From assembly GCF_016623585.1 (NCBI RefSeq), contig NZ_JAEHFY010000020.1, positions 1 to 64,000 on the forward strand: 64,000 nucleotides of DNA, written 5' to 3'. The translations under genes and the position numbers were made by a program. The number at the start of each line of letters is the position of its first letter. The stretch's first letter is position 1. The notes below the pieces were generated by a model that was not told the DNA's origin, ran no database searches, and saw nothing but the letters and a program-made list of their open reading frames with translations. Positions 3,367 to 36,937 of the stretch are shown piece after piece. Source of the stretch: Pedobacter segetis. GTDB lineage: Bacteria; Bacteroidota; Bacteroidia; Sphingobacteriales; Sphingobacteriaceae.

Positions 3367-4572
3367 TTGCTAGAAACCAATACATATAATTACCAAGAAG
3401 CTTTAATCCGTTATCAAGAAAAAATTAAAGCCGTTGCCGCACAAGAGATGGTGCTCAATCTGGGGCCTCAACATCCTAGTACACACGGTGTTTTAAGGTT
3501 AGAATTGATTACCGATGGTGAGATTGTTAAAGAGGTAATCCCTCATATCGGTTACCTGCATCGCTGTTTCGAAAAACATGGCGAGTCTTTAAATTATGCC
3601 CAGATAATTCCTTACACCGATCGTATGGATTATCTAGCCTCTATGAACAATAACCACGCTTTTGTGATGGGTGTTGAGCGGATGTTGGGTATTGAGAACA
3701 ACATCCCGAAACGGGTAGAGTACATTAGGGTTTTGGTTTGTGAGCTTAACCGTATTGCCTCGCACCTGATCGCCATTGGCACCTATGGAATAGATATTGG
3801 TGCCTTTACCCCTTTTCTTTGGTGTTTTAGAGATCGTGAGCACATCATGAATATGCTAGAATGGGCTTCTGGTGCAAGGATGCTCTATAATTATATTTGG
3901 GTGGGCGGTTTGTTTTACGATATTCCGGTTGGTTTTGAAAAACGCTGTGAAGAATTTGTTGCTTATTTTAAGCCAAAAATGAAAGAATTAAACCAGTTGC
4001 TAACCGATAATCAAATCTTTATTTCTCGTACAGCTAATGTTGGTGTTTTACCTTTAGATGTGGCCATTAATTATGGTTGCTCTGGCCCTATGCTGCGTGG
4101 TTCTGGTTTAAAATATGATTTACGCCGTGTTGATGAATATTCTGTTTATCCCGAGATTGATTTTGAGATTCCTTTTGCCAAAGGCGAGATTGGCCAGGTT
4201 GGCGATTGCTGGAATAGGTATAAAGTAAGAATTGATGAGATCGAAGAATCTTTGAAAATTATTGAGCAGTGCGTAAAAAAATTGACCAAAGAACACAAAC
4301 GTACCACAGAATTTGATCCAAGAGCTTTAGTGCCTAAGAAAACTGTCCCAAAGGCACAAGATTTTTATGTGCGGGCAGAAAACCCAAAGGGAGAAATCGG
4401 TTTTTATTTTATAGCTGATGGCCGTTCTGATAAACCTTTTAGGGTAAAATCTCGCGGGCCAAGTTTCTGCAACCTATCTGTATTGCCAGAAATTTCTAAA
4501 GGCGTTATGATCGCAGATTTAGTGGCAATAATTGGTTCTTTAGATATTGTGCTGGGTGAAGTGGATAGGTAG
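3367..4572 (+). CDS. nuoD: NADH-quinone oxidoreductase subunit D
   Basis: NuoD is the 49-kDa subunit that forms the quinone-binding pocket of complex I. The 401-residue product keeps the key features: GPQHPSTHG with the quinone-site His near residue 38, RMDY with the conserved Tyr, and the C-terminal [10 protein letters not shown] and [13 protein letters not shown] stretches. The start is taken as the TTG at 3367, three bases after the nuoC stop. The first in-frame ATG, at 3448, would begin only just before the conserved core, so TTG is the better choice. A bidirectional terminator follows. Confidence 0.92.
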
Positions 4573-4628
4573 GTAATTGATATTATGAGGGTTAAATATT
4601 TTGATCCAGATTATTAGGTCATAAAAAT

Positions 4629-4656
4629 AAAAAGCGGAAATTTATTTCCGCTTTTT
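4629..4656. terminator. bidirectional rho-independent terminator
   Basis: A perfect 12-bp stem (AAAAAGCGGAAA with TTTCCGCTTTTT) closes on a TTTA loop. A-runs and T-runs on the two sides suit termination of both nuoD and the converging ferritin-like gene. Confidence 0.9.
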
Positions 4657-4681
4657 ATTTATCTAATCAAATAGTTTATAA

Positions 4682-5557
4682 CTATGGTTTTATAAACATA
4701 CCTGCAATAGCAGAAACAGCCTCTTTGCTTAAAGGTTCATCAAAACTCTCAACCGCAATTTTCTTGGATGTTTTTGTACCGGTAGTAGCACCATTTAACG
4801 TTGTAACATCTAATCCACCTTGCATTACATTATCTTCGCCTTTAAAATTATCATCAGCAGCTGGCACACCAGAATCATTAGCTTGTCCGTTTGCACCCAA
4901 AGAAATCCAAGGAGTAATTACCCCTGTTACCCCGCTTGCCGCAAAGGCCCTCCTCATCTGGCGGATATGTGAAGCGTGACGGGCTTCTACCGCATGGATA
5001 CCCAAAGCGGCGGTTAAATAAACCTTGTTTCCTAATAAATTAGGTGCTTGCCCTTTATATGCCCTTACACCAGTATCTTCAAAAACCTGCGCCACCGCTA
5101 AATAAGTAGCGTAATTTTCAAAAACATCGTTAAAAGTACCATTTGCGGTAAAATCAAAATTTGGTTTTGTAACAGGGGTACCGTTATTAGCTTTTATAGT
5201 ATTCACTAAAAAAGTTACGTGGGCACTTTCATCTGCCTGAATTTGTTTTAATGCGGCAGCGGCTGCACTATTACCAGCTGTACCAGTGGTAAAGGCTAAA
5301 CTAGAATTTCCTTTAATGTAAAATTCTGATTCTAGGTATTCTAATGTTAAAGCAAAATTTAAAACATCATTAACACTATTGCTGGTTTGCCCATAGGCTT
5401 TATTAAATAACGTACCTAAAGCAAACGGAAGAGCAGACAATGCAACTTTAGAACCAAAACTAGTTATATTTTTAATTGCTGCCCTACGTGGGTTTAATCT
5501 ATCTGTAATTTCAGGATCGATTGTTTCTATATCCTTTAATATTTTTAAAAAGTCCAT
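4682..5557 (-). CDS. exported ferritin-like domain protein (Ferritin_2 type)
   Basis: The 291-residue protein has a four-helix ferritin-like pattern with the expected acidic and histidine ligands: EYLESEFY, QADESAHVTF, VFEDTGVRAY and HAVEARHASHIR. These resemble the Ferritin_2 family (PF13668), found in many exported Bacteroidota and plant desiccation-related proteins; the exact function is unknown. Residues 24-25 are a twin Arg (NPRRAAIKN) ahead of a hydrophobic segment at about 33-50, so Tat export is likely. It lies ten bases after its paralogue at 5568-6269 and is surely cotranscribed with it. Confidence 0.8.
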   Translation of the reverse strand: MDFLKILKDIETIDPEITDRLNPRRAAIKNITSFGSKVALSALPFALGTLFNKAYGQTSNSVNDVLNFALTLEYLESEFYIKGNSSLAFTTGTAGNSAAAAALKQIQADESAHVTFLVNTIKANNGTPVTKPNFDFTANGTFNDVFENYATYLAVAQVFEDTGVRAYKGQAPNLLGNKVYLTAALGIHAVEARHASHIRQMRRAFAASGVTGVITPWISLGANGQANDSGVPAADDNFKGEDNVMQGGLDVTTLNGATTGTKTSKKIAVESFDEPLSKEAVSAIAGMFIKP

Positions 5558-5567
5558 TTTGTTTTAT

Positions 5568-6269
5568 TTAAGAAGGTAAATTACTTGCGTTGATTTCTGT
5601 AACAATGTATTTTTTGGCCATTGTTAAAACCTCTATGGGCGTTCTACTGTTATTAACAGCATTAGCATCTACTACATCTGGCCCCACAAAAGTACCAGGG
5701 GTAATTAAATCCCTAATTAAAGCTGCATGGCGAGCTTCAACAGAAACAATCTTACCTGCTAATGTTAAATAATCGGCACTCTTAATCAAATAACCAGCTC
5801 CGTTATAAGCTGTTACACCTAAATCTTCAAAAGCTTTTGCAGATGCCAAAACACTATCTCTACTTGCAAAATTTATGGAAGAAAAATCAACTTCTAGGCC
5901 GGGGATGGCACTATTTCCCAAAGCTGCTTTAAAAAATTCTCTATGGGCAACTTCATGGTCGCGTATTGCGGTCATATAGGCACTTTCGGTAGATGAAATA
6001 CTAGCATACGGCGTTAGCGCCACTTGGGTATAAAATGCAGCCTCTAGTTGCTCTAGCGCATAAGCATAATTTAATATACCTATATCTCCGGTACCTAAAT
6101 CAATGCCTCTATTAAAATTGTCGTCTTTTTTACAGCCTGCGGCTACTAAGGCAATACCTGCTGCGCTGGCTCCTGCATATTGCAAGAAATTGCGACGTTG
6201 CATACTTTTAGAGAAAAATGTTTCATTTTCTACTTGCAACTCTTGATCATCTTTTTCAAAATTTTTCAT
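5568..6269 (-). CDS. Tat-exported ferritin-like lipoprotein
   Basis: This 233-residue paralogue of the downstream gene begins with a Tat-type signal: QRRNFLQYAG, then a hydrophobic stretch ending in VAAGC, which looks like a lipobox. Tat export would carry a prefolded, metal-loaded protein. The ferritin-like helices carry YALEQLEAAFY, RDHEVAHREFF, AFEDLGVTAY and VEARHAALIRDL, so the di-metal ligand pattern is intact. It is the first gene of the pair, with a candidate promoter just upstream. The substrate and metal are not shown by the sequence. Confidence 0.82.
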   Translation of the reverse strand: MKNFEKDDQELQVENETFFSKSMQRRNFLQYAGASAAGIALVAAGCKKDDNFNRGIDLGTGDIGILNYAYALEQLEAAFYTQVALTPYASISSTESAYMTAIRDHEVAHREFFKAALGNSAIPGLEVDFSSINFASRDSVLASAKAFEDLGVTAYNGAGYLIKSADYLTLAGKIVSVEARHAALIRDLITPGTFVGPDVVDANAVNNSRTPIEVLTMAKKYIVTEINASNLPS

Positions 6270-6304
6270 AAGAATTTAATTTTTTAGTTTAAAAATTGTG
6301 TTTA

Positions 6305-6312
6305 CAAACTTA
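6305..6312 (-). promoter_or_regulatory. candidate -7 box for the ferritin-like pair
   Basis: On the minus strand this reads TAAGTTTG, a full match to TAnnTTTG, about 36 bases before the start codon at 6269. No clear TTTG is found 19 bases further upstream, so the call is tentative. Confidence 0.35.
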
Positions 6313-6664
6313 AAAACGATAAAAAATGATATTTGGATGTTAATTATCAAATTAAAAATATGATTTGCCTAATCATTTTTTATTTATTCGTTTGTTTATG
6401 GGGGATGCTATAATTGTTCCAAAAAATAATATTTAACCAAAATATTCTGATTTAGAAATGCCTTTTTTAGTTTAAAAAACCAAACAAATTGACGGATGAG
6501 CATACCTAGAGCATTATTTTGCTTGTGAAAATATCCTAAATAAAAAATTTATAAAGTATTGGGTTATCGCTATTAAAAATAAAATTGTTGTATTTTGATA
6601 AAAACGTTTTTTTAGGTTTTAATAAAATAATTAAATCGCTTTTTTTATTAAATTTATCTCAGAT
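6313..6664. other. AT-rich divergent intergenic region
   Basis: This is the rest of the 395-bp gap between the ferritin-like operon and the membrane protein gene. It is very AT-rich. I see no gene, RNA or convincing repeat in it. Confidence 0.5.
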
Positions 6665-7279
6665 ATGAGAAAGTTTTTATCAATTTTATTTGCAATTATA
6701 GCTTGGTTTGCAATAATAGCACAGTATATTTTAATGTTGAACGCAAGTACCACAGGTTTTGCAGATACATCCATCAGGTTTTTTAGCTTTTTTACAATTC
6801 TTACCAATATTTTGGTGGCCATTTATTTTACCAACCAAGCATTCGTAAAAAATTATGCTCATAAAGCATTTTTAAATAAAACTGGTAATTTAACCTCAAC
6901 TACGGTATATATTTTAGTGGTTGGGCTAGTTTATCAGGTTATTTTAAGAAAAACATGGACATTTACTGGTTTAAATAAAATAGTAAACGAGCTTTTACAT
7001 TCTTTAATCCCCATCTTGGTTTTATTGTTCTGGTATCTTTACGAAGAGAAATCTATCATCAAATGGAAAAGTATATTGGGTTGGTTATTATACCCATTGG
7101 TTTATCTGATTTTTATTTTGATTAGAGGTTATTTTACCAATTATTATCCTTATCCGTTTGTTAACGTTCTAAATTTGGGTTTAAGCCAAGTGATCATCAA
7201 TAGTTTAATGATCATGATTTTATTTATAACCATTTCTTCCGTTTTAGTGGGGTTGGGTAAAAAGATCGATAAAGATTGA
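6665..7279 (+). CDS. Pr6Pr-type integral membrane protein
   Basis: A 204-residue protein with about six hydrophobic segments spread along its length, the first at residues 4-25. Its opening (SIRFFSFFTILTNILVAIYF) and overall layout fit the Pr6Pr family of six-helix membrane proteins, which is related to the FAR-17a/AIG1-like group. No catalytic residues can be assigned with confidence. It is a lone gene between the ferritin-like operon and pyrR. The family label is from memory of the pattern. Confidence 0.7.
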   Translation: MRKFLSILFAIIAWFAIIAQYILMLNASTTGFADTSIRFFSFFTILTNILVAIYFTNQAFVKNYAHKAFLNKTGNLTSTTVYILVVGLVYQVILRKTWTFTGLNKIVNELLHSLIPILVLLFWYLYEEKSIIKWKSILGWLLYPLVYLIFILIRGYFTNYYPYPFVNVLNLGLSQVIINSLMIMILFITISSVLVGLGKKIDKD

Positions 7280-30675: not shown

Positions 30676-30760
30676 GGAGAGCTGGCAGAGTGGTCGATTG
30701 CGACAGTCTTGAAAACTGTTGACTGTAACAGGTCCGGGGGTTCGAATCCCTCGCTCTCCG
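30676..30760 (+). tRNA. tRNA-Ser (anticodon UGA)
   Basis: The acceptor stem GGAGAGC pairs with GCTCTCC. The anticodon stem ACAGT/ACTGT closes the loop CTTGAAA with anticodon TGA at 30710-30712. A long class II variable arm and the T-loop TTCGAAT follow, as expected for serine. The CCA end is not encoded. A promoter lies directly upstream and a hairpin terminator at 30773-30808. The gene reads UCA and similar serine codons. Confidence 0.96.
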
Positions 30761-30772
30761 CGTAATAATATT

Positions 30773-31142: not shown

Positions 31143-31967
31143 TTATATCTGCTCATCAACCTCTTCGCCTATATTTTTCAAATAAGCGTTTAAGTTAATT
31201 GCAGGAATTGTCCCAATTGCTTGCTGTAAGTATCTCGTTAGCTGCATAAAGAAAGTTACAAATGAGTGGTCAGCCTCGCTAAATTTCATCTTATTAAACT
31301 TCCGATTAGCATAAAATTTTAAATAGGCTTCCTGTCCAACTATTGTAATTTCTTCATTTGGGTTATAATCAATATAAAAACTACCATAATCAGCGATACA
31401 CCCTAAATCAACACTTTGGAGATTATCTAACGCTTTGATATGCTTTTCAATTGTATCATTATTCTTATGAGTGAAACCGTTAGTGCTGCAAAGAATTCCA
31501 CCTATTATTTTTGTTAAGGGGCGGGGAGTAAATTTTGTGCCTCCGTTAATAAAGCTTGCAGCCTCTCTTTTTAGCACTCTTACGCTTTCAATTTTTTCTC
31601 CTGCATATTCTATGTATGTTTTTTCTCCAACATTACCTTGTATATCAGGTTTTACTTCAAAAACTGCATATACTCCTTCTGCCGGAACATAGTAAAATCC
31701 ATTCTGATTAAAGATAAAAGGAGTAAACCAATTGTCATATACAACAATATCCATTTGTTGGCTTGTATTGCCTTCGTGGTCTATTACTATTGCTTTATCA
31801 ACGCAATATCTGTTTGGTAAATATTTTCGCAACCATTCAATCCAAGCATTTTCTATCGCGTCGCCTTTAGAACCAGGATGGTCAATAAATTCTCTATTTG
31901 TATTTAGTTGGGCAGACATCTGGCGCTGCAACCCATTGAATAATTGTTTTAAATCGACTTTAGTCAT
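31143..31967 (-). CDS. DUF6602-like PD-(D/E)XK nuclease, predicted CBASS effector
   Basis: The 274-residue protein begins at the ATG 31965-31967; a longer frame to 32006 would run deeper into the upstream gene and looks less natural. It shows a nuclease core: Glu39 (GDAIE), Asp73 (QQMDIVVYD) and Glu104-x-Lys106 (VFEVKP), the order expected of PD-(D/E)XK enzymes. The segment GSKGDAIEN...LRKYLPNRYCVDKAIVID (given in parts) resembles DUF6602. It overlaps cap3 by eight bases and ends the CBASS operon, the usual effector place. No SAVED or other sensor domain is visible, so it may bind the cyclic nucleotide itself, as NucC does. That is inference. Confidence 0.7.
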   Translation of the reverse strand: MTKVDLKQLFNGLQRQMSAQLNTNREFIDHPGSKGDAIENAWIEWLRKYLPNRYCVDKAIVIDHEGNTSQQMDIVVYDNWFTPFIFNQNGFYYVPAEGVYAVFEVKPDIQGNVGEKTYIEYAGEKIESVRVLKREAASFINGGTKFTPRPLTKIIGGILCSTNGFTHKNNDTIEKHIKALDNLQSVDLGCIADYGSFYIDYNPNEEITIVGQEAYLKFYANRKFNKMKFSEADHSFVTFFMQLTRYLQQAIGTIPAINLNAYLKNIGEEVDEQI

Positions 31968-32418
31968 ATTTATATAAGTTATTTTCAAACCATACATAAA
32001 ATCCAAAATCTACTGTGTTTTTGGAATATCCTATTATTAATAAAACAGGATTTGCAATGGAAGTATTTTTGTTATTAATAATTGTATTTATTGCCGAAAT
32101 ATCTGTTGCGCTCGGGATGGGGCTATTATTCGGATGAGTATGCCATTCTCCGATGTAAATTTTTATCGGGGTGCCTGTATAAAATTCCGTAAATTCATTT
32201 TCAATTCCTTCTGTACTTCGTTCAAAAGAATATTTTGATGCTTGATATCTCTTTGGAAGCACAGTATCTGTAATGTGCAAATGCCGGTTATCTTCGGAAT
32301 AATACCCAATTAAAAATCCACCAAATTCTTTCTGGTAATGAGTTTTGCCAATTTCCAAAAGTTTATTCAGTAGTTCAGCTTCAAGGCTTAACCCTATTTT
32401 TTCTATTTTTAAAATCAA
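31960..32418 (-). CDS. cap3: CBASS Cap3, JAMM/MPN-type deconjugating peptidase
   Basis: The 152-residue protein is a compact JAB/MPN domain. Its JAMM zinc motif is complete: Glu in QKEFGGFLIG, then GEWHTHP...SATD giving H-x-H-x7-S-x-x-D. In type II CBASS, Cap3 cuts the bond made by Cap2 between the C-terminus of the CD-NTase and a target, and so tunes the response. The gene overlaps cap2 by four bases and the nuclease gene by eight, within one operon. The role is inferred from context plus motif. Confidence 0.88.
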   Translation of the reverse strand: MILKIEKIGLSLEAELLNKLLEIGKTHYQKEFGGFLIGYYSEDNRHLHITDTVLPKRYQASKYSFERSTEGIENEFTEFYTGTPIKIYIGEWHTHPNNSPIPSATDISAINTIINNKNTSIANPVLLIIGYSKNTVDFGFYVWFENNLYKYD

Positions 32419-34085
32419 AATTCCTTTATACTAATGTTGAAGCAATTTGTATCATCCGTTTCAATGAAAAAATTTCGTAGTGTCTTTTCTTGCTCGAACT
32501 TTGTATTTATCTGTTTTATCGCTGCCTGTACAAGAACATTTATATCATTATATGAGGCTTTAAACGTCGGGCTCCAACATCCTGTAGGATTATGCAAGTC
32601 GTCAACATCAAACTTTAATATATTCCCAGCAAATTGAGAGATGATGAAATCATATCTGTTTTGTTCCGCAGCACACACCAAATGTTTGGCGTGATTTGAT
32701 ATTGAAAGATTTAAGAGTGTTGACTTTATTTGTAGCTGACTTAACACATATAGCAAACCATTGTCAGCCGAGCAATCAATTATAATATCATACTCTTCAA
32801 GATGTTTTTCCATTTCAGCTTTGATACCGGTATCTGCCAAGTGCGATTTAATGAAAAAATCAAAGGCTTCGGAATAATCATATCCACCATTAATCGGCTC
32901 AAAGAAGGGAGAAATTAGACACAATTCGTTTATCAGATCATTGGTCTTATTTGTAATTCCTGTAAAGAAAGAATATTCTGACCTGCAAACATTTTCCGGT
33001 TCTTTTACATCAAACTCAATAAAACCTAATCTGCGGCAACCACATCTTATCAATGTTTTGGCTAATATGCTTCCAACGGCTCCGATTCCAATAATCAATA
33101 TTTTACTTTCAGTTATTCGCTCACTTAGTTTTCCTCTGCCAAAAAAGTATTTATAAGAACAGTTTCGGGTCATCGCCCAATGGATGGACCTATCTTCTTC
33201 AATCTTTGTAAGCCATTGCTTGTCTATTTTTTCGCCGTAGATAGGAAAGTTACCAATCTCAAGTATAATGGCCTGCCAATGAATTTCTGTTTCAGAAATA
33301 TTGTATCCTACAAATAAAGGAAGCGTTTTCCCATTCTCTTTTGCCAGTCTTTCTTCAACATTGTGTAGAAATTTTAAAAAATCTTGTGGTAATGTCGTCT
33401 CAAAGTCTTTCCAATCATTAAAAACCCATCGTTGATTTTTACTTGGTGCATCTTTTAAGAAGACGAATAATGCGGTGCTTTGAGGCAGGTTTTTAAGTTG
33501 GAAATTCCAATCTACATCTACTATTTTTTTCCTATCCTTATTTAAGAAAGCTTGGAAAATACTGCTTTGAATATTCTCTTTATAAAAAACCCCATTGTTC
33601 ATTATTGAATAATCAACAAAGCCAAATTGGTTTTTATGAAAAGTATAATCTACTTCACTAAAGAAGTAAGCAAAATAATTTTCCTTGAATGCTTTTTGTG
33701 GTACAATTAAATGTTCATAATGAGTATCTGAATCTTTGTTGATGTAGTATTTCTTAATCCAAGCCTTTACAGATTCAATATCATATATCAGTTTTTGGGA
33801 CAAAACAGGAGTATGTGCCGTATGAATGCAGATGGCTCCATTCTGCATAATGTGTTTGTGTTCTATTAAATTATCATTAGAAAACTTAATAGTTTCAGTC
33901 TCGTGGCTTTTAAACGGATATTGAGGATGGATAGTAACATTGAATTCTAATGGCTGCATCAAACCGCCAACAAAAACTGTAATACATCCCTCGATGTCAA
34001 TTTTGCTTTGCTCAAATGGCTTTACAATTTTCACATCGGGGATGCCTTTTATCACTGTATTGATTTCATTTACTCTTTGGCTCAT
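32415..34085 (-). CDS. cap2: CBASS Cap2, E2-E1 fusion ubiquitin-transfer-like enzyme
   Basis: The 556-residue protein joins an N-terminal E2-like domain to a C-terminal ThiF/E1 adenylation domain. The E2 part has its active Cys86 in NGAICIHTAHTP. The E1 part starts near residue 325 with the nucleotide loop IIGIGAVGS (333-338), the ENVCRSEY segment, and the catalytic Cys503 in NPTGCWSPTF. Cap2 activates the CD-NTase C-terminus and conjugates it to target molecules, which primes the synthase. It starts five bases after the CD-NTase gene. All expected catalytic residues are present. Confidence 0.9.
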   Translation of the reverse strand: MSQRVNEINTVIKGIPDVKIVKPFEQSKIDIEGCITVFVGGLMQPLEFNVTIHPQYPFKSHETETIKFSNDNLIEHKHIMQNGAICIHTAHTPVLSQKLIYDIESVKAWIKKYYINKDSDTHYEHLIVPQKAFKENYFAYFFSEVDYTFHKNQFGFVDYSIMNNGVFYKENIQSSIFQAFLNKDRKKIVDVDWNFQLKNLPQSTALFVFLKDAPSKNQRWVFNDWKDFETTLPQDFLKFLHNVEERLAKENGKTLPLFVGYNISETEIHWQAIILEIGNFPIYGEKIDKQWLTKIEEDRSIHWAMTRNCSYKYFFGRGKLSERITESKILIIGIGAVGSILAKTLIRCGCRRLGFIEFDVKEPENVCRSEYSFFTGITNKTNDLINELCLISPFFEPINGGYDYSEAFDFFIKSHLADTGIKAEMEKHLEEYDIIIDCSADNGLLYVLSQLQIKSTLLNLSISNHAKHLVCAAEQNRYDFIISQFAGNILKFDVDDLHNPTGCWSPTFKASYNDINVLVQAAIKQINTKFEQEKTLRNFFIETDDTNCFNISIKEF

Positions 34086-34090
34086 TATAA

Positions 34091-35065
34091 TTATCCAAAA
34101 TTTAGTTTCGGTGGAGGGACTGGCATACCGCTGTTGGTTCCATATTGGTTAGTTTTAGACTCTTCCTTTTTAAACTTTGAATTTTCAGGAAAATAGGTTT
34201 TCAAATTTTCGTCATTATCCCTAATCCTGTCAAGCATATTTTTCATATCATCCGATAGCTGTTGTTTTTCGTACGAAGTTAAAGTGTCGGCCAAATCATT
34301 AGAGCTATTACCTGGGTCTTTTAGTGTAAAGCTGTCCTTGGTTACGTTATCCCTAATATATTCTAAGACAGTTTCAAGTTTCTCCCAAATACTTCCGGTT
34401 ATGGTTTTGTTATCAAATGCTTTAATAGTAATGAGTTCCAAAAAGAATGATTTTGTAGGATAATTATATTTAGTGTTTTTCCAAACTTTCAAAAGGCGTA
34501 TAATTTTTCTTATTGAATCTTTTTCATCCGTAGCTCTGGTTTTAATGTTATTGATTTGAGCTTTGACATTAGTTTTAATACGTTCGCTTCCTGCATCGAT
34601 ATTCCCGTACTTGTAATACACATACAAGTTCAAATTTTCATTTTCCTTGTATTGGTCTTGAGATAACTCTCGTCCTGGGACAACATCAATCTTAATTACG
34701 TCTCCATCACTATCTGCATAAAACTCCAGCCCAATTGAAACCTTTTGTTTTTTAACCTCGGCAACATCTTTGTATTTTTCGTAAAGGAAATCATAGACAT
34801 CTTCATACATTTCTTTTAATGTTCCGCTGCAGCCAAAAGCATTACGTTTGAATGGAGACACCAAATCGAAATCGAATTTTGTGTTAATAGCGGTATTCTT
34901 GGCGTACGAACCGGAGTTAAACGGAGAGTAAATGTCGCTCTCGTATTTGTCTTCTAAGGCTTCTTTAACCTCGTTTTTCTTTTTGACGTATTTATCAAAA
35001 AGTGTTTCTTCTTTCGTTATTTGATGCGTCGAAATAACTGAATCTAAATGTTTGTTTTTATCCAT
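34091..35065 (-). CDS. CBASS CD-NTase (cGAS/DncV-like nucleotidyltransferase)
   Basis: The 324-residue enzyme would make a cyclic oligonucleotide second messenger when phage infection is sensed. The nucleotidyltransferase core is intact: Gly52-Ser53 in FNSGSYAKNT, Asp65 and Asp67 in KFDFDLVSP, and a third acid, Asp127, in VIKIDVVPG. The C-terminal tail is flexible and Pro-rich (SGMPVPPPKLNFG) and ends in glycine, as needed for conjugation by Cap2. It is the first gene of the operon, with a candidate promoter and direct repeats upstream. Clade and product cannot be told by eye. Confidence 0.9.
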   Translation of the reverse strand: MDKNKHLDSVISTHQITKEETLFDKYVKKKNEVKEALEDKYESDIYSPFNSGSYAKNTAINTKFDFDLVSPFKRNAFGCSGTLKEMYEDVYDFLYEKYKDVAEVKKQKVSIGLEFYADSDGDVIKIDVVPGRELSQDQYKENENLNLYVYYKYGNIDAGSERIKTNVKAQINNIKTRATDEKDSIRKIIRLLKVWKNTKYNYPTKSFFLELITIKAFDNKTITGSIWEKLETVLEYIRDNVTKDSFTLKDPGNSSNDLADTLTSYEKQQLSDDMKNMLDRIRDNDENLKTYFPENSKFKKEESKTNQYGTNSGMPVPPPKLNFG

Positions 35066-35112: not shown

Positions 35113-35120
35113 CAAAGTTA
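35113..35120 (-). promoter_or_regulatory. predicted CBASS promoter (-7 box)
   Basis: The minus strand reads TAACTTTG, matching TAnnTTTG. Exactly 19 bases further upstream lies TTTA (35140-35143), one base off TTTG. The expected leader to the CD-NTase ATG is about 40 bases. The tandem repeats at 35141-35166 touch the -33 element. Confidence 0.5.
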
Positions 35121-35140
35121 CAAAATGTATTCCAAATAAT

Positions 35141-35166
35141 AAATCTGTCAACCAAATCTGTCAACC
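35141..35166. repeat. tandem 13-bp direct repeat, candidate operator
   Basis: AAATCTGTCAACC occurs twice in direct succession (35141-35153 and 35154-35166). Its core TGTCAACC recurs at 35280-35287, inside the promoter of the divergent regulator, where TGTCAACCAAA is shared over 11 bases with the first unit. The position beside both promoters suits operators for the HTH protein at 35324. Confidence 0.5.
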
Positions 35167-35271
35167 AGTTAGTTTTTACTTAAATTGTGAGATAATGCCC
35201 TTTTCTAACGCGTTTGCTGTATGTGAACTTTTGTCATAGTTACAACTGATGGCACAATACACCATAATACT

Positions 35272-35303
35272 ATTGCATTTGTCAACCAAAACAATTACCT
35301 TTG
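35272..35303 (+). promoter_or_regulatory. promoter of the HTH-peptidase regulator, with an embedded repeat unit
   Basis: TACCTTTG (35296-35303) fits TAnnTTTG, and ATTG (35272-35275) lies 20 bases upstream as a near -33 element. TGTCAACC (35280-35287) sits between the two elements, where a bound repressor would block polymerase. The promoter lies after the possible start at 35249, which supports the ATG at 35324. Confidence 0.5.
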
Positions 35304-35323: not shown

Positions 35324-36388
35324 ATGGAAACAAAAGCAATATTTGCGGAAAGATTTAAGTCAGCCCGTCTTATGAATGGTTTCTCATTGCAGGATTTGGC
35401 TGACGCTTTAGGTGGTACTTTATCACGTCAGGCGTTGCATCGTTACGAAAAAGGAGAAGTCATTCCTGATGCAGAAAAAATCAATTTGCTAAGCAAAGCA
35501 CTTAATATAAGTCCTGATTATTTTTTCAGAACTACTAAAGTTGAATTTAGCGATATCGAATACAGAAAGCTAAGCAGAATGCCACAAAAAGATGTGGCAA
35601 TCATCAATGAAACTACTAAAGAATATCTTTCACGCTACTTAGAATTAGAAGAAATTATCGGACTTCCTCATAGTTTTGATAATCCTCTAAAAGATTTTGG
35701 AAAGGTTACTACTTATGAGCAGGTAAATAAAGCTGCTGAACTGTTAAGGAAGGAATGGTCTTTAGGCACTGGCCCAATATTCAATATCGTTGAACTTTTG
35801 GAAGATAAGAATATCAAAGTTGTAAAGTTAAGTGTGGACGAAGATTTCGATGGCTTACAGACTTTTGTTAACAAAACCATACCTGTTGTAGCTTATAATG
35901 AAAGAAAGGCTAATAAGGCTGATAGAATACGTTTTACTTTGCTTCACGAGTTGGCTCATTTACTTTTAGTATTGGGTGATGTAACCGAAAAACAAAAGGA
36001 AACTTTATGCCATCAGTTCGCAGGAGCAATGCTACTTCCTGAAGAAGCTATTAAAGCAGAATTAGGTAACCACCGTACAAAGCTATCGACTTTAGAACTG
36101 GGTAATATCAAAAAACAATATGGCATTTCAATGCAGGCCATTGTGATGAGAGCAAAGGTTTGTGGTATTATCAATGACAATTATACCAAACAATTCTTCT
36201 TTTTAATTAGACAGCAAAATTGGAAAGTAGATGAACCCGTAGAATATCAAGGAATTGAAGAGAGCAACCGCTTCGAACAATTATTATTTAGAGCTTTGAT
36301 TGAAGACCAGATTTCAATGTCAAAAGCCGCTTCATTATCTAATCAATCTTTGGCTGAATTTAAAAAACAGCATCAACCGATGTTTTAG
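35324..36388 (+). CDS. XRE helix-turn-helix plus ImmA/IrrE metallopeptidase regulator
   Basis: The 354-residue protein has an XRE-type HTH at residues 5-62 (FSLQDLADALG, LSRQALHRYEKGE). A linker follows, then an ImmA/IrrE peptidase domain with the zinc motif HELAH (208-212) and a downstream Glu in EKQKETLCHQFAGAMLLP. In known systems such peptidases cut a repressor after a damage signal. In CBASS the repressor CapH and peptidase CapP are separate; here both functions sit on one chain. It is divergent from the CBASS operon and 33 bases before a PIN gene. It may instead be the antitoxin of that PIN protein. Confidence 0.88.
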   Translation: METKAIFAERFKSARLMNGFSLQDLADALGGTLSRQALHRYEKGEVIPDAEKINLLSKALNISPDYFFRTTKVEFSDIEYRKLSRMPQKDVAIINETTKEYLSRYLELEEIIGLPHSFDNPLKDFGKVTTYEQVNKAAELLRKEWSLGTGPIFNIVELLEDKNIKVVKLSVDEDFDGLQTFVNKTIPVVAYNERKANKADRIRFTLLHELAHLLLVLGDVTEKQKETLCHQFAGAMLLPEEAIKAELGNHRTKLSTLELGNIKKQYGISMQAIVMRAKVCGIINDNYTKQFFFLIRQQNWKVDEPVEYQGIEESNRFEQLLFRALIEDQISMSKAASLSNQSLAEFKKQHQPMF

Positions 36389-36421: not shown

Positions 36422-36937
36422 ATGAAATTAAAAATAGCTGTTACAGATGCTTGTATTTTTATAGACCTTTATGATTTAGGTCTTGTTAATGAATTTTTCC
36501 AACTTGAAATAGAAATACATATTACGACCTCAGTTTATTTTGAATTATATTCTGAACAGCAACAAATTTTAAAAGCCTATCAATCCGTTGATAGACTTCT
36601 TGTTCATAATCTCAAAGAGGAAGATTTTCTTCAAATTCAGTCAGAACTTTATCCTAAATCTTTATCTGAAACTGACAAATCAGTTTTACACGTTGCCAAT
36701 AAATTAGATGCTTGTGTTTTGAGTAGCGACAAAACCGTTCGTAATTGTGCAAAAAATAAAGATATTGAGTATCACGGTATGATTTGGATATTTGATAAAC
36801 TTGTAGAAGCCAATATTCTTACAAAGAAACAAGCGGCTTTGAAGCTTGAAGAACTCGTCTCAACTAATTTTATTTTTCAGAATAACAAACCTTTAGTTGA
36901 CGAGATACAAATGAGGCTGAAGTTATGGCAACAATAG
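36422..36937 (+). CDS. PIN-domain protein (VapC/DUF3368-like ribonuclease)
   Basis: The 171-residue protein has a PIN fold with all acidic positions in order: Asp9 (VTDACIF), Glu41 (VYFELY), Asp85 (ETDKSVL) and Asp103 (SSDKTVR). PIN proteins are metal-dependent ribonucleases, often toxins. An AGGAG sequence lies four bases before the ATG, a strong ribosome site for this genome. The gene follows the HTH-peptidase gene and is likely cotranscribed. XRE-plus-IrrE proteins paired with PIN proteins are a known predicted toxin-antitoxin layout. A role as an extra CBASS-linked effector is possible but only inferred. Confidence 0.82.
   Translation: MKLKIAVTDACIFIDLYDLGLVNEFFQLEIEIHITTSVYFELYSEQQQILKAYQSVDRLLVHNLKEEDFLQIQSELYPKSLSETDKSVLHVANKLDACVLSSDKTVRNCAKNKDIEYHGMIWIFDKLVEANILTKKQAALKLEELVSTNFIFQNNKPLVDEIQMRLKLWQQ

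Follow-up and report, generated by a model that had tools for sequence, protein, structure and literature searches.

The 64,000-nucleotide window examined here (the whole stretch of Pedobacter segetis DNA that was analyzed, from contig NZ_JAEHFY010000020.1) contains at 35324-36388 a gene for a single-chain repressor-protease. It is followed by a gene for a PIN-domain protein and lies divergent from a cyclic-oligonucleotide-based antiphage signaling system (CBASS). It is reasonably probable that the repressor-protease, with its PIN partner, represses both its own gene and the divergent CBASS operon through a long palindrome, that this repression is released by cleavage, and that the whole is a portable module whose cargo has been exchanged. 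Comparison of related sequences supports the architecture of the module, its operators, the placement of its promoters, its recurrent linkage to immune operons, and the exchange of its cargo.

The fused repressor-protease and its PIN partner

The two genes of the module and the parts of the regulator are as follows.

35324..36388, plus strand: repressor-protease, single chain of 354 amino acids (open reading frame, Pfam, PADLOC, AlphaFold, and fold matches)
Residues 4-70 of the repressor-protease: XRE helix-turn-helix (HTH)
Between the HTH and peptidase halves: linker loop with near-invariant R81-K82
Residues about 128-280: ImmA/IrrE (M78) zinc peptidase domain, with HELAH at 208-212 and E226
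Residues 285-354: conserved, all-helical C-terminus
36422..36937, plus strand: PIN-domain nuclease, putative toxin, 171 amino acids, downstream of the repressor-protease gene

The regulator is encoded by one uninterrupted open reading frame, and the HTH and the peptidase are fused in all aligned relatives. In its product, Pfam recognized HTH_3 at residues 12-67 (8e-14) and Peptidase_M78 at residues 160-277 (1e-13). An upstream in-frame ATG at 35249, giving 379 amino acids, was rejected as the start because the conserved promoter at 35273-35303 separates it from 35324 and the relatives align from the METK encoded there. The peptidase is probably catalytically active, since H208, E209, and H212 of the HELAH motif as well as E226, the likely third zinc ligand, are invariant in all 74 aligned regulator sequences. 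The sequence-only reading of this DNA had proposed a single XRE-ImmA/IrrE chain with an intact HELAH site divergent from CBASS, and the Pfam, PADLOC, and fold matches together with this invariance bear it out. Beside the zinc site, the cysteine of E226-x-x-C229 is also invariant (74/74), while alanine is usual at the equivalent position in related peptidases; a redox or metal-related role for C229 is possible.

The AlphaFold model of the chain has a mean predicted local distance difference test score (pLDDT) of 93, with residues 81-90 the least confident stretch of the body (pLDDT 74). CapH, CapP, ImmR, DdrO, and IrrE each match a part of this one chain: at residues 4-70 the DNA-binding N-terminal domain of CapH (Z 10.7, 31% identity) and ImmR (Z 11.9), and CapP at residues 128-305 (Z 10.7 over 163 residues), with IrrE and CapP ranking first in Foldseek. 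Residues 185-316 of 9vzy, a solved HTH-containing chain of 393 amino acids, also match the peptidase part. Among PADLOC families RmrA, the RosmerTA antitoxin, came out on top (14 RmrA models, best 1.4e-47), ranking ahead of capP (1.5e-14) and capH (5e-10), and the NCBIfam spr1629 antitoxin model matches with a score under its cut-off.

A PIN homologue lies immediately downstream of the regulator in 84 of 101 loci studied, and the two genes of the window are probably co-transcribed. PIN folds top the Foldseek list for the 36422-36937 product, which also matches PDC-S70 in PADLOC and the Protein Data Bank profile 2lcq (VapC6/Nob1). Its acidic residues D9, E41, D85, and D103 are conserved, and the protein is a putative toxin. 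The RmrT toxin model gave no PADLOC match on this PIN neighbor, RmrT toxins being diverse. The pair is kin to the RosmerTA-type toxin-antitoxins.

The shared control region

Among 400 genomes from the family, 24 contain a regulator relative at E < 1e-30. When 84,980 species genomes were scanned, 442 relatives came up; the top 80 (51-99% identity, all Bacteroidota) were retained. With the window these make up 81 loci, and operator statistics were taken over the 320 bp upstream of the 81 repressor genes against shuffles. The control elements of the window are listed below.

35115..35153, no strand: predicted distal operator, AAGTTACA...CTGTCAACC, covering the CBASS promoter
35113..35151, minus strand: probable CBASS promoter, with a TTG(AC) -33 box in the right arm of the operator and a -7 box, TACATTTtG or TAACTTTG, in the left arm
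35156..35169, no strand: extra tandem half-site ATCTGTCAACCAGT, in a 13-bp period with 35143-35156
35277..35290, no strand: predicted right arm of the proximal operator, ATTTGTCAACCAAA, lying inside the repressor promoter between its -33 and -7 boxes
35273..35303, plus strand: repressor promoter of Bacteroidota type, TTG-N20-TACCTTTG (TTG at 35273-35275, TACCTTTG at 35296-35303)

A long palindrome, GTTnACA-N23/24-TGTnAAC, is common to the shared control regions. The 7-mer GTTGACA/TGTCAAC is present upstream of 64 of the 81 repressor genes, where 3.5 would be expected. There are 35 pairs of GTTNAC and GTNAAC whose starts lie 30-31 bp apart, whereas shuffles yield 0.2 and other distances yield few pairs; tolerance of mismatches raises the palindrome pairs to 112, compared with 2.6 in shuffles. 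The palindromes form two clusters relative to the repressor start, one at about -52 to -109 (near -75) and one at -176 to -242 (near -210). Promoter-like strings of the form TTG-N-TAnnTTT tie each cluster to one side, as those at proximal sites face the repressor by 43 to 7 and those at distal sites face the cargo by 29 to 8. Of the 37 loci with a divergent defense operon, 28 have the distal site, compared with 6 of the 18 that lack a divergent gene (Fisher p 0.0035, kinship ignored). In the window, the GTTACA-N-TGTCAAC form of the distal operator has its sole exact match in the 3.84 Mb genome, and the repressor promoter TTG-N20-TACCTTTG is conserved in seven aligned control regions.

An operator in the form of a plain direct repeat was considered and refined, as the 13-bp tandem repeat includes the right arm of the long palindrome, which is visible only through the relatives. 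In XRE-ImmA relatives at 32-44% identity, the palindromes are alike in layout with other letters, and single loci are not convincingly above shuffles. Two further motifs lie between the operators: TGACATNATGTCA, found with at most two mismatches in 28 of 81 loci (1.6 expected) and degenerate in the window at about 35188-35202, and TGTCATAGTTACA, found in 17 of 81 loci (0.5 expected), mostly near -95, and at about 35233-35245 in the window. These may be additional sites for the repressor or may bind a second factor.

The divergent slot and its exchanged cargo

In the window the slot opposite the repressor-protease holds a complete type II CBASS with NucC, all four components of which PADLOC recognized.

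34091..35065, minus strand: cGAS/DncV-like nucleotidyltransferase (CD-NTase), the CBASS cyclase (Cyclase, 1e-83)
32415..34085, minus strand: Cap2, E1-E2 conjugase (E1-E2, 7e-236)
31960..32418, minus strand: Cap3, JAB peptidase (JAB, 1.5e-50)
31143..32006, minus strand: NucC-type endonuclease effector (NucC effector, 1.5e-93; Pfam DUF6602)

Across the 81 loci, the slot carries a recognizable defense or stress operon in 37, a divergent gene of other or unknown nature in 26, and no divergent gene in 18. Annotated representatives served as the reference for cargo types, and the other members were placed by blastp clustering or from their gene order.

CBASS with NucC: 9 loci, the window counted
CBASS with HORMA/TRIP13: 3 loci, of which L117 was called from an AAA+ match and gene order
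Other CBASS (CapV phospholipase, TIR, SAVED-HNH, or other effectors): 6 loci
Pycsar, PycTM and PycC, with E2 in some: 5 loci
Multi_ubiq/DUF6791-ThiF/DUF6527 operons resembling Bub: 6 loci
IetAS: 2 loci
DUF2188 with a pP_pnuc_1 nuclease: 2 loci
Cap3-like JAB operon: 1 locus
Split HTH, CapP-like peptidase, and PIN-like set: 3 loci

The divergent slot itself is special, beyond its mere setting in a defense island, because cyclases and E1-E2 proteins dominate that side: in PADLOC, a single cyclase family matches up to 12 proteins there and E1-E2 families match 7. In the same scan, no cyclase was among the leading families downstream of the PIN gene, and the two genes beyond it gave only scattered defense matches (GajB 3, restriction-modification specificity 2, AbiEii 2). 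Some remoter relatives have Thoeris-like (L040) or Wadjet-like (L044, L045) genes opposite, labels that come from sequence reading alone, and the homologue on a Runella plasmid (42%) has an annotated CBASS phospholipase operon on its divergent side.

The content of the slot changes readily. On a tree of the 80 regulators the cargo labels need 31 changes, the least possible being 9. Two loci that form sister rows, L048 with CBASS and L049 with Pycsar, both have regulators 96% identical to that of the window. Conversely, the CD-NTase and NucC of Belliella loci L103 and L105 are 90-91% and 91-92% identical to those of the window, beside regulators that are just 54% identical. Seven close control regions can be aligned over their whole length, and the divergent start codon keeps its column even where a different cargo gene follows. 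A regulatory cassette with swapped-in cargo is the simplest reading of these comparisons. A search that started from the cargo turned up only distant NucC-CBASS relatives (about 40-55% CD-NTase identity), and the four whose surroundings were inspected had no module nearby; therefore, this CBASS does not need the regulator.

Only part of the earlier proposal of a fused CapH/CapP-like CBASS regulator stands. The homology to CapH and CapP, the palindrome over the CBASS promoter, and the recurrence beside CBASS favor it, and the worry that homologues might keep company with PIN genes alone is answered, as both PIN and CBASS were found in their neighborhoods. However, the chain is also one member of a toxin-antitoxin-type pair, and a regulator specific to CBASS is ruled out, since Pycsar, Bub-like, IetAS, and further systems occupy that slot too. 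The operators and the exchangeable cargo were not described in that reading and are added here.

Several loci show further features. In Algoriphagus L101, L115, and L121 the three parts of the module occur in unfused form opposite the fused one: the slot encodes a small HTH protein, a peptidase like CapP, and a PIN-like protein. In L048, L049, L051, and L054 a yegP-type DUF1508 gene separates the control region from the CBASS or Pycsar operon, and three of these loci also have an LRAT-fold gene there. A gene of about 460-476 amino acids with a hydrophobic stretch, of unknown function, ends the NucC-CBASS operon of L029 (about 3760-5190 in the oriented locus) and the Pycsar operon of L030 (about 5470-6860), and is absent from the window. 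At the island border in the window, a tRNA-Ser(TGA) gene (30676-30761) flanks the CBASS side, and a degenerate short echo of its 3' end, gagttcgaatccctctc, lies at about 30890, which suggests an old integration at tRNA-Ser(TGA). A second full copy was not found within the 64-kb window.

Proposed mechanism, alternatives, and significance

Under the proposed mechanism, the repressor-protease would bind GTTnACA-N23/24-TGTnAAC over both promoters and repress its own gene and CBASS. Upon a signal of stress or infection, the peptidase domain would cleave its own chain, most plausibly in the flexible loop with the near-invariant R81-K82 that joins the DNA-binding half to the peptidase half. The loop is a candidate site because it is analogous to the exposed loop in which DdrO is cleaved and in which an arginine matters (PMC10904395). 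Cleavage would derepress both CBASS and the repressor-PIN operon, and the PIN nuclease could be freed. By analogy with CapP and PprI, for which ssDNA or DNA damage is a known signal (PMC10904395, PMC13373217), either may serve as the inducer here. Over evolutionary time the operators and promoters would stay fixed while one defense operon replaces another in the divergent slot.

A number of observations weigh against this reading. Some fused XRE-ImmA proteins, those of the PrpR/RamB kind, regulate without known self-cleavage. A C-terminal GAF-type region in the style of IrrE or CapP is absent from the model; only helices and no strand follow residue 220, and the approximately 50 helical residues beyond the peptidase match leave no room for one, therefore ssDNA sensing should not be assumed. 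The left arm of the window's proximal operator is degenerate, but it is intact in L047, whose regulator is 99% identical. The distal site falls below threshold in 9 of the 37 defense loci and is retained in 6 of the 18 loci without a divergent gene (L050, L065, L067, L068, L084, L111), which may have lost their cargo or may have a tiny gene or an RNA in the slot. In other phyla, the XRE-ImmA and PIN pair occurs alone or beside type I restriction-modification genes, without a divergent immune operon; on plasmids of Shewanella baltica (L143) and Sulfuricurvum (L144) it was seen beside or inside such operons.

The most serious alternative, though an unlikely one, is that CBASS is repressed without a self-cleavage switch, with the peptidase fold sensing a ligand or partner as in PrpR, cleaving another protein, or with titration by the PIN partner lifting the repression. 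The missing GAF-type sensor region would fit, as would the M. tuberculosis regulator structures that share the fold (residues 129-303, Z 10.6). Toxin-antitoxin antitoxins are, moreover, often autoregulated through the toxin:antitoxin ratio. However, the invariance of HExxH and E226 argues for kept catalysis, and CapP, IrrE, and ImmA each cleave an HTH repressor (PMC10904395, PMC10440598). Looping is a very unlikely account, in which the distal operator loops to the proximal site for autoregulation alone and overlaps the cargo promoter by coincidence. The spacing between the sites, most often 134-135 bp (19 of the 35 loci with both), and the six loci that keep a distal site without a divergent gene are consistent with it, but the orientation of the distal promoters toward cargo and the less frequent distal site in cargo-less loci are not.

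It is also rather improbable that the pair is solely a self-regulating relative of RosmerTA, with an XRE-ImmA antitoxin and a PIN toxin, that sits in a defense island by chance while CBASS is controlled separately. RmrA is indeed its best PADLOC family (1e-47), ImmA antitoxins paired with PIN-like domains are on record (PMC10440598), many genomes carry the pair without CBASS, as do other phyla, and the NucC-CBASS relatives noted above occur without the pair. Yet the second operator lies on the divergent promoter, has its promoters facing the cargo, tracks the presence of cargo, and is conserved through cargo change, and the cargo is specific to the divergent side. A PIN-only toxin-antitoxin pair without any regulatory link is likewise disfavored by the distal-operator statistics. 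Repression of self and cargo with release by cleavage thus remains the preferred reading.

Three families of controllers of adjacent immune operons have been described: CapW/BrxR, CapH with CapP, and CapK with CapS (PMC13373217). We infer that the present controller works like CapH and CapP, as one chain without the GAF region. Both systems join an HTH repressor and an ImmA/IrrE-type peptidase near immune operons, and both domains match in sequence and fold; CapH and CapP, however, are two proteins, whereas here a single chain without a GAF-type C-terminus has a PIN partner and a long-spaced palindrome at two divergent promoters. CapW/BrxR and CapK with CapS also have CBASS, Bub, Thoeris, and further systems as neighbors, and CapKS has yegP nearby as in relatives of this module (PMC13373217), but they use a WYL domain or kinase/STAS chemistry and have neither a protease nor a toxin partner. 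In DdrO/IrrE (PprI) and ImmR/ImmA, an M78 peptidase inactivates an HTH repressor, though as separate chains with DNA repair or an integrative and conjugative element, not immunity, as targets. ImmA antitoxins with an HTH and PIN-like partners, such as RosmerTA and those of the NetFlax D25 node, are predicted toxin-antitoxin pairs for which HTH cleavage was suggested (PMC10440598). They share with our module an XRE-ImmA antitoxin-like chain beside a toxin-like gene; here, in contrast, the PIN partner lacks an RmrT match and the predicted operator also covers a neighboring immune operon. No report joining ImmA/PIN pairs to immune-operon control was found in the open-access literature.

Given the above, we tentatively suggest, at somewhat less than even confidence, that a toxin-antitoxin pair turned into a portable immunity controller, in which a self-cleaving repressor-protease and a PIN protein would govern a fixed two-operator divergent promoter with exchangeable CBASS, Pycsar, Bub-like, IetAS, and other operons. 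If so, one trigger would free the defense operon and a back-up toxin together. The module would then be a further controller family beside CapW/BrxR, CapH with CapP, and CapK with CapS, one made of a single chain and linked with a predicted toxin. It would provide a concrete candidate operator and explain how very different immune systems are exchanged behind one switch in Bacteroidota, and genes divergent from the module behind the palindrome would be candidates for unknown defense genes.
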